Shown one piece after another: positions 18,901 through 21,900 of a stretch of DNA of 64,000 nt. The notes under the pieces are model-generated. The model had not been told where the DNA came from and searched no databases. It saw only the letters and a list, made by a program, of their open reading frames with translations. A program made the position numbers and the translations under genes. The number at the start of each line of letters is the position of its first letter. Within the stretch, counting starts at the first letter, position 1. Source of the DNA: Fratercula arctica (Eukaryota; Chordata; Aves; Charadriiformes; Alcidae); NCBI GenBank assembly GCA_947846985.1, contig CANTUZ010000014.1, forward strand, positions 8,787,837 to 8,851,836. Reading direction: 5' to 3'.

Positions 18901-21900
18901 TGGCTGCCCACGGGGTCCCCTCCCACTGATTGGTCCACTGGCAGGATCCTCCTCGTGCTGATTGGCCCACCAGCAGGGGTCCTGGGGCATCCTCCCTGCT
19001 GATTGGCTGCTGGCAGGGGTTCCCCTCCTGCTCATTGGTCCGCCCGCTGGTCCCTCTTTCTGCTGATTGGCCGCACTCTGATTGGCTGTCGCTCGGTGTG
19101 CCCGGCCCTGATTGGCTGTCAGTCGGTGTGCTGCTCTCTGATTGGCGCTGGGTCGCTGCACCGCACTCTGATTGGCTGTCGGTCGGTGCGCCATGCTCCA
19201 ATTGGCTGTCGGTTGTTGTGCTGGGCTCTGATTGGCTGTTGGGGTGACGCTCTCTAATTGGCTGTCACTCGGTGCACCAGGCTCTGATTGGCCCTGAGTC
19301 TGTGTGCTGCGCTCTGATTGGCTGTGGGTGGTTGTGCCGGGCTCTGATTGGCTGCGGGTGGTTGCTCCGGGCTCTGATTGGCTGCAGGTGGTTGCGCCGG
19401 GTTCTGATTGGCTGTGGGTCACTGCGCCGGGCTCTGATTGGCCCTGAGTCTGTGCGCTGCGCTCTGATTGGCTGTGGGTGGTTGCGCCGGGCTCTGATTG
19501 GCTGTGGGTCGGTGTGTCAGGCTCTGATTGGCCCTGAGTCTGTGCGCTGTGCTCTGATTGGCTGTGGGTGGCTGCGCCGGGCTCTGATTGGCTGCAGGTG
19601 GTTGCGCCGGGTTCTGATTGGCTGTGGGTCACTGCGCCGGGCTCTGATTGGCCCTGAGTCTGTGCGCTGCGCTCTGATTGGCTGTGGGTGGTTGCGCCGG
19701 GCTCTGATTGGCTGTGGGTCGGTGTGTCAGGCTCTGATTGGCCCTGAGTCTGTGCGCTGTGCTCTGATTGGCTGTGGGTGGCTGCGCCGGGCTCTGATTG
19801 GCTGCGGGTGGTTATGCCGGGCTCTGATTGGCTGTGGGTCGGTGCGTTGGGCTGTGATTGGCTGTGGGTGGTTACGCCAGGCTCTGATTGGCCCTGAGTC
19901 TGTGCGCTGTGCTCTGATTGGCTGCGGGCGGTTTTGCCGGGCTCTGATTGGCTGTGGGTCGGTGCGCCAGGCTCTGATTGGCTGTGGGTGGTTACACCGG
20001 GCTCTGATTGGCTGTGGGTGGTTACGCTGGGCTCTGATTGGCTGCGGGTGGTTGCGCTGGGCTCTGATTGGCTGTGGGTGGTTACTCCAGGCTCTGATTG
20101 GCTGTGGGTCGGTGCGCCGGGCTCTGATTGGCTGTGGGTGGTTACTCCGGGCTCTGATTGGCTGTGGGTCAGTGTGTCGGGCTCTGATTGGCTGTGGGTG
20201 GCTACACCGGGCTCTGATTGGCTGTGGGTGGTTACGCCGGGCTCTGATTGGCTGTGGGTCAGTGCGTTGGGCTCTGATTGGCTGTGGGTGGTTACGCCGG
20301 GCTCTGATTGGCTGTGGGTCGGTGCGTCGGGCTCTGATTGGTTGTGGGTGGTTACGCCGGGCTCTGATTGGCTGTGGGTCGGTGCGCCGGGCTCTGATTG
20401 GCTGTGGGTGGTTGCGCCGGGCTCTGATTGGCTGTGGGTCGGTGCGTCGGGCTCTGATTGGCCCTGAGTCTGTGCGCTGTGCTCTGATTGGCTGTGGGTG
20501 GCTGCGCCGGGCTCTGATTGGCTGCGGGTGGTTGCACTGGGCTCTGATTGGCTGCGGGTGGTTGCACTGGGCTCTGATTGGCTGTGGGTGGTTACGCCGG
20601 GCTCTGATTGGCTGTGGGTCGGTGCATCGGGCTCTGATTGGCTGTGGGTGGTTACGCCGGGCTCTGATTGGCTGTGGGTCGGTGCATTGGGCTGTGATTG
20701 GCTGTGGGTCGGTGCATCGGGCTCTGATTGGCTGTGGGTGGTTACGCCGGGCTCTGATTGGCTGTGGGTCAGTGCGTCGGGCTCTGATTGGCTGTGGGTG
20801 GTTACGCTGGGCTCTGATTGGCTGTGGGTCGGTGCGCCGGGCTCTGATTGGCTGTGGGTCGGTGCGCCGGGCTCTGATTGGCTGTGGGTGGTTACGCCGG
20901 GCTCTGATTGGCTGTGGGTCGGTGCGCCGGGCTCTGATTGGCTGTGGGTCAGTGCATCGGGCTCTGATTGGCTGTGGGTCAGTGCATCGGGCTCTGATTG
21001 GCTGTGGGTCGGTGCGTCGGGCTCTGATTGGCTGTGGGTGGTTACGCCGGGCTCTGATTGGCTGTGGGTCGGTGCGCCGGGCTCTGATTGGCCCTGAGTC
21101 TGTGCGCTGTGCTCTGATTGGCTGCCCTCTGTCCCCCCCCCAGCTGGAGAGCAAGCGCGACGCCTTCTCCCCCGTCCTGCTCCAGTTCTGCACCGACCCC
21201 AAGAACCCCATCACCGTCATCCGGGGGCTGGCCGGGTCCCTGCGCCTCAGTGAGTGACGTCACCGTGGGGACACCCCCCCGTCACCCCCCCGTCACCCCC
21301 CCGGGGACACCCCTGTCACCCCCCACCCCGGGGACACCCCCCCCCATCACCCTCATCCAGGGGGGTGGCCGCCTACCCTGCGCCTCAGTGAGTGACGTCA
21401 CCGTGGGGACACCCCCCCGTCCCCCCCCCGTCACCCCCCCCCGTCACCCCCCCGTCACCCCCCCGGGGACACCCCTGTCACCCCCCACCCTGTGGTGCCC
21501 CCCCCCCCCCCCCCCCCCATCCCTGTCCCCACGGGACACCCCCACCCCCCCCATGGGGACCCCCCCTGCCCCTCTGGGGACACCCCTGTCCCCATCCCTG
21601 TCCCCATTGGGACCCCCCCCGGTCCCACCCTGACCCCCATGTCCCCCCCCCCCGTCCCTGTGGCCCCCCCGACCCCCCCCCATCCCCCCCAGACCTGGGG
21701 CTGTTTGACACCGAGACGCTGGTGGAGCCCCTTGTCCCTGTCCCCATGGGCCCCCCCACCCTGTCCCTGTCCCCGTCCCTGTCCCTGTCCCTGTCCCCAT
21801 CCCCACGGGCCCCCCCATGCCCAGGGCCCCCCCCTGTCCCCGTGGCCCCCCCTGACCCCCCCCGACCCCCCCAGACCTGGGCTGTTCAGCTCCGAGATGC

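Follow-up and report, generated by a model that had tools for sequence, protein, structure and literature searches.

A KDM6B intron of Fratercula arctica filled with NF-Y consensus sites: a minisatellite probably expanded by sequence stuttering

The window analysed here, i.e. the whole stretch of 64,000 nucleotides (GC content 0.68) from a 14.4-Mb contig of Fratercula arctica, contains a gene that by its coding sequence is KDM6B. Its exons were located by tblastn with an approximate human KDM6B sequence as query, and the two exons flanking a 30-bp repeat array matched together with the next exon human KDM6B in the PDB with 291 bits, compared to 207 bits for UTY and 206 bits for KDM6A. Hence, the original prediction was right in assigning the gene to KDM6B and the array to one of its introns. 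This part of the gene is composed of the following features:

18290..18417 (start approximate), plus strand: KDM6B exon 5' of the array, ending with ...LNPPTPSIY (tblastn, PDB match)
18418..21143, plus strand: KDM6B intron, GTGAGT...CCCAG, 2726 bp, 98% tandem repeat, 90 ATTGG
18506..18774, plus strand: 61-bp array of 4.4 copies with 96% matches, ATTGG twice in each unit (CTCATTGGTCC, CTGATTGGCTG)
19076..21130, plus strand: 30-bp array, 69 units, ATTGG in 69 of 69, the CCAAT boxes being on the minus strand
21114..21118, plus strand: CTGAT in the last unit, probably the branch site; an inclusive count from the intron end places its A at 27 nt
21144..21249, plus strand: KDM6B exon 3' of the array (tblastn, PDB match)

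The intron begins with the donor GTGAGT at 18418 and its acceptor CCCCAG ends at 21143. ATTGG starts for the first time 9 bases into the intron, and for the last time 26 bases before the final intron base, hence the repeats fill the intron. With a tandem-repeat cover of 0.98 it is repetitive in the sense of Hron et al. (2026).

Tandem Repeats Finder reported 68.4 copies of the 30-bp unit in 19076-21130, where 69 units were counted. This span contains 70 ATTGG on the plus strand, one of them out of register (at 20686), 55 occurrences of CTGATTGGCT and 66 of the full NF-Y consensus RRCCAATSRS, all of the latter on the minus strand. It had been claimed that every unit carries CTGATTGGCT and that the array comprises about 70 perfect NF-Y sites. 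The former cannot be maintained, because of the ten-letter word only ATTGG occurs in all 69 units, and the latter number is nearly right. Another 20 ATTGG are situated in 18418-19075, which includes the 61-bp array, each unit of which contains ATTGG twice, as previously described. The complete intron thus holds 90 ATTGG, in agreement with the earlier estimate of roughly 90 in about 2.7 kb, together with 62 CTGATTGGCT and 85 full RRCCAATSRS. The consensus is absent at 5 of the 90 ATTGG. It forms part of the repeat units, as in minisatellites of the ABO or LTR12 type. We take CTGATTGG to resemble a Y-box.

The comparison with shuffled sequence, the check proposed for the NF-Y motif, placed the intron far above the shuffles. 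In 500 dinucleotide-preserving shuffles of the intron with both strands pooled, ATTGG was found on average 4.1 times (maximum 10) and RRCCAATSRS 0.37 times (maximum 3). The remaining 61 kb of the window contain no RRCCAATSRS on either strand. A separate observation is that ATTGG/CCAAT is depleted in the window outside 18418-21143, with 47 observed versus 168 expected from the dinucleotide composition.

Across the intron, 71 of the 89 steps from one ATTGG to the next are 30 bp long. The register, which was supposed to be constant over 1.8 kb, is indeed unbroken from 19257 to 21117, but it is broken earlier by a 26-bp unit at 19231. For paired CCAAT boxes a spacing peak at 31 bp and a steric minimum of 24 bp are given (PMC4982600). 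The 30-bp step of the array exceeds this minimum, so that the spacing would permit several NF-Y trimers to bind; three steps in the intron are shorter than 24 bp (15, 19 and 11 bp). The proposed similarity of the step to NF-Y promoter spacing and to three helical turns is only partly given, since it is near the 31-bp peak (PMC4982600) but, with a helical turn of 10.5 bp, slips by approximately 51 degrees from one unit to the next. Hence, the NF-Y sites are on a common helix face only locally.

The same core is also of interest with regard to splicing. The branch-site consensus is yUnAy. Counted back from the final intron base, the last adenines are found at 2, 27, 47 and 57, i.e. the stretch from 3 to 46 nt contains a single one, that at 27. 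Since CTGAT fits the consensus and holds this sole adenine, the last unit probably supplies the branch point of the KDM6B intron. Furthermore, all 85 YTNAY in the intron are followed by TGG and hence lie inside the ATTGG core, i.e. the NF-Y consensus overlaps the branch site, by accident or otherwise. The repeat unit probably began as the branch-site region of the intron. The assumption that the array grew around a transcription factor site is therefore one of two readings, because the same core holds the probable branch site.

In the window copy of the locus, ten KDM6B introns were analysed. Their tandem-repeat cover lies between 0.27 and 0.98, with eight of them reaching 0.73 or more, and the nine introns other than that of the array contain 0 to 3 ATTGG each (intron borders are approximate for cover and ATTGG counts). 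Most of these other introns are largely composed of tandem repeats without ATTGG, hence the expansion needs no NF-Y. Exon sequences are involved as well, because exon copies were found in the next two introns:

21694..22271, plus strand: exon stuttering, the 5' end of the next exon being partially copied four times within the next intron, 34-37 bp, at 21694, 21876, 22067 and 22238
22753..24297, plus strand: 3' end of the LGLF exon, completely or partly copied nine times within the following intron, up to 62 bp, exon-query matches with protein-level support

Among the copies of the LGLF exon, four of 62 bp match at 98-100%, three at 85%, and two are approximately 31 bp long. Searching the array itself with two queries, namely the upstream exon and the final 50 bases of the downstream one, yielded no copy. 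At the paralogous gene, the homologous KDM6A intron on contig C1 is approximately 1.5 kb long with 34% GC, 1 ATTGG and 2 CCAAT (approximate borders), and tandem repeats cover 0.55% of 20 kb at KDM6A (33% GC) compared to 59% of the window.

The assembly contains the KDM6B locus in two copies, one on each side of a gap:

11914..12013, no strand: 100-N assembly gap, at which C14:8772368-8799749 ends, a block colinear with window 12066-40675

The block in the window starts 53 bases past the gap, and the partner block ends at it. The two locus copies align in 12 chained pieces, which are 81-91% identical with many gaps, and ten KDM6B exons show 3 mismatches and 16 gap bases between the copies in 1288 aligned positions; some of the indels disrupt reading frames in the upstream copy. 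The array has 43 units in the upstream copy and 69 in the window copy. Each of its first eight units has its counterpart in the other copy, with no more than one difference per pair and the 26-bp unit shared, and the final units are the same; the two arrays differ in size in their interior. In the whole genome (1.21 Gb, 28 contigs), the 16-mer CTGATTGGCTGTGGGT occurs 61 times, 42 of them in the window array, 18 in the second array 27 kb upstream and 1 on C5. A dispersed repeat family found no support, as a search with 300 bp of the array, in which simple repeats are skipped, yielded 17 matches, all of them in the two locus copies. For a period-30 pattern, there were 99 matches in forward and 7 in reverse orientation; among the matches listed, six lay outside the locus, all of them single.

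The simplest reading would be that the two locus copies are unmerged haplotypes, or a single haplotype assembled twice. The 81-91% identity of the chained pieces is low and argues against haplotypes, though repeats and indel errors contribute to it. Probably, the copies are two haplotypes, in which case the array is a VNTR with 43 and 69 units. A true tandem duplication of KDM6B was put aside in view of the 100-N gap bounding the block, the ten near-identical exons and the scattered indels; a recent true duplication, its junction coinciding with the gap, is possible. With regard to the assembly, KDM6B occurring twice around the gap probably reflects an unmerged overlap of contig ends, the content left of the gap being partly redundant with that on the right. 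In the window copy, an eleventh KDM6B exon, RHGVDYLTG... (about 31720-31912), contains many single-base insertions, which look like consensus errors; the same exon is open in the upstream copy.

The most obvious question is whether the CCAAT core is under selection. ATTGG is kept in 112 of the 112 array units of both copies. By parsimony on a neighbour-joining tree, its five columns show no change, compared to at least one change in every one of the 25 others (108 of the 112 units, 50 of them distinct, 30 columns; from each copy, the unit of 26 bp and the final one were left out). The 19 of these 25 variable columns that lie outside CpG changed about twice each on average. In permutations, the zero-variation run gave a p-value of 0.001 in the window copy and was reached in 0 of 2000 cases in the upstream copy. 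As a control, 16 arrays of the region were scored, two of which are the copies of the 30-bp array; p was 0.0015 in one and 0.0265 in another of the 14 others, and at least 0.1085 in 12. The ATTGG core is thus sharper than the cores of most of these 14 arrays. However, invariant cores also exist in some nearby arrays (14-bp and 22-bp), hence the restriction of variation to few columns is partly a property of such arrays. Column invariance was rejected as proof of selection, given these other invariant cores and the non-independence of copies within an array. Selection for NF-Y on the ATTGG core is possible from these patterns.

With a probability of roughly 0.75, we regard the array as a locally expanded, probably length-polymorphic minisatellite that took over the KDM6B intron by sequence stuttering. 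This term has been used for genes on chicken dot chromosomes whose introns are repetitive, vary in length and occasionally contain copies of exons, and GC-rich gerbil genes are mentioned in the same context (PMC12954441); the stuttering introns are found mostly on avian dot chromosomes (Hron et al. 2026). The KDM6B locus shares much with the avian examples, i.e. local imperfect tandem repeats that fill an intron, a length that differs between copies, exon edges copied into neighbouring introns and a GC-rich gene (PMC12954441). The array is a striking member of this recently described kind. Neither KDM6B nor CCAAT occurs in the main text of PMC12954441, and among publications on NF-Y/CCAAT minisatellites and on NF-Y/KDM6B intronic repeats, none refers to the KDM6B array in its title or the opening of its abstract. 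Regarding the mechanism, a short stretch just upstream of the 3' splice site would have been copied repeatedly in the GC-rich region, by unequal exchange, gene conversion or replication slippage. The copied stretch would have held the branch site CTGAT overlapping the CCAAT box ATTGG, so that every copy would carry a near-ideal NF-Y/Y-box site. The array could have arisen without any need of NF-Y, its size being set mainly by repeat turnover, and array copies that are accessible can probably be bound by NF-Y. Against this account stand the five unchanged ATTGG columns, with a core sharper than in most other arrays scored, and the persistence of ATTGG, which is contrary to the local sequence, as ATTGG/CCAAT is otherwise depleted. 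Nevertheless, neutral stuttering accounts for more of the observations than a regulatory reading, for which the sequence provides modest support.

Such a regulatory reading would see the array as a working NF-Y platform, acting either on KDM6B as an enhancer within its intron or on NF-Y as a decoy made of DNA or RNA, in which selection keeps the CCAAT core of every unit. We regard it as unlikely, even though it would explain the unchanged ATTGG columns in all units of both copies and the full consensus at 85 of 90 ATTGG, and would fit a step above the 24-bp minimum and near the 31-bp peak (PMC4982600). Moreover, there are precedents which demonstrate that NF-Y arrays can be functional, namely the ABO minisatellite and the LTR12 repeats (PMC11853044). 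The minisatellite upstream of ABO contains CBF/NF-Y motifs, and its allele-dependent copy number was linked to reporter transcription (PMC2988417, PMC11701149, citing Kominato 1997). It resembles the KDM6B array as a tandem repeat with NF-Y motifs and variable copy number, but it consists of 1 or 4 repeats approximately 4 kb 5' of the start codon and was experimentally tested (PMC2988417, PMC11701149), whereas the KDM6B array comprises 43-69 intronic units and is a candidate for such an effect. The U3 region of LTR12/ERV9 harbours 5-17 repeats of approximately 41 nt, whose conserved CCAAT motifs are bound by NF-Y; certain LTR12 elements are likewise intronic, and LTR12 RNA was reported to sequester NF-Y (PMC11853044). 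However, these repeats belong to a retroviral LTR that also contains GATA and MZF1 sites (PMC11853044), whereas the KDM6B array was found at one locus only, and it has far more units than the repeats of ABO or LTR12/ERV9. Another intronic VNTR and proposed enhancer, in intron 2 of SLC6A4, is regulated by CTCF and, according to the titles cited there, by YB-1, but it differs in its units of 16-17 bp, its 9, 10 or 12 copies and its motif (PMC2848977).

Several observations stand against the NF-Y platform. Invariant cores also occur in the 14-bp and 22-bp arrays of the region, and the homologous KDM6A intron contains no such array. Furthermore, a random 30-bp unit has, judged from composition, a chance of approximately 0.4% (about 0.004) to include the full NF-Y consensus, hence some NF-Y arrays are expected by chance among thousands of stuttering introns. 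A variant of this idea is that of a length-variable platform of 43-69 units, in which fast repeat turnover leaves the five NF-Y bases invariant and the array length would tune KDM6B transcription or NF-Y availability; we consider this variant about as unlikely. If it is true, it would represent a platform far richer in NF-Y sites than ABO or LTR12, and it would be an instance in which a regulatory element arose by stuttering.

Alternatively, the core may be conserved as a branch-site region, with repeated branch points assisting or modulating the splicing of a long repetitive intron. The location of all 85 YTNAY within the core, the last of them with the sole A 3-46 nt upstream of the intron end, and the identity of the last unit in both copies are consistent with this proposal. 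Nonetheless, it appears quite improbable, because the invariance is on ATTGG and not on CTGAT, in which the T two positions before the A changed once and the G directly before the A three times, i.e. the invariant letters track NF-Y rather than the branch site. Moreover, only the last unit is at the usual distance from the acceptor, and one used unit would leave 69 unexplained. An assembly artefact that created the array or its length is the least probable alternative of all, for although the locus is doubled around the N gap and both copies contain read-like indels (in the window exon at ~31720-31912 and in three exons of the upstream copy), both arrays keep a clean 30-bp register, in which consensus error would have scattered indels, and their first eight units match including the one of 26 bp.

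Stuttering introns have been described mainly as a matter of instability, and the KDM6B array represents a clear test case for function. Its unit comes close to an ideal site for a factor that has been characterized as a pioneer (PMC11853044), its copy number differs between the two assembled copies, and a natural control exists in the paralogous KDM6A intron, which is low in GC and has no array of this kind. The regulatory reading is attractive and could be tested. In addition, judging from this array, a repeat expansion can apparently be seeded by a branch-site region.

Two further repeats of the region are worth mentioning. At 21206-21463, the exon query did not list a second copy, and Tandem Repeats Finder reported 1.9 copies of a 138-bp unit which spans the 3' end and donor of the post-array exon. 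At 34262-35352, a 22-bp array of GGCTGATGCCACCTCAGGGTTG with 49.6 copies was found, which shows a near-invariant core, also contains CTGAT and has 34.6 copies in the other locus copy.
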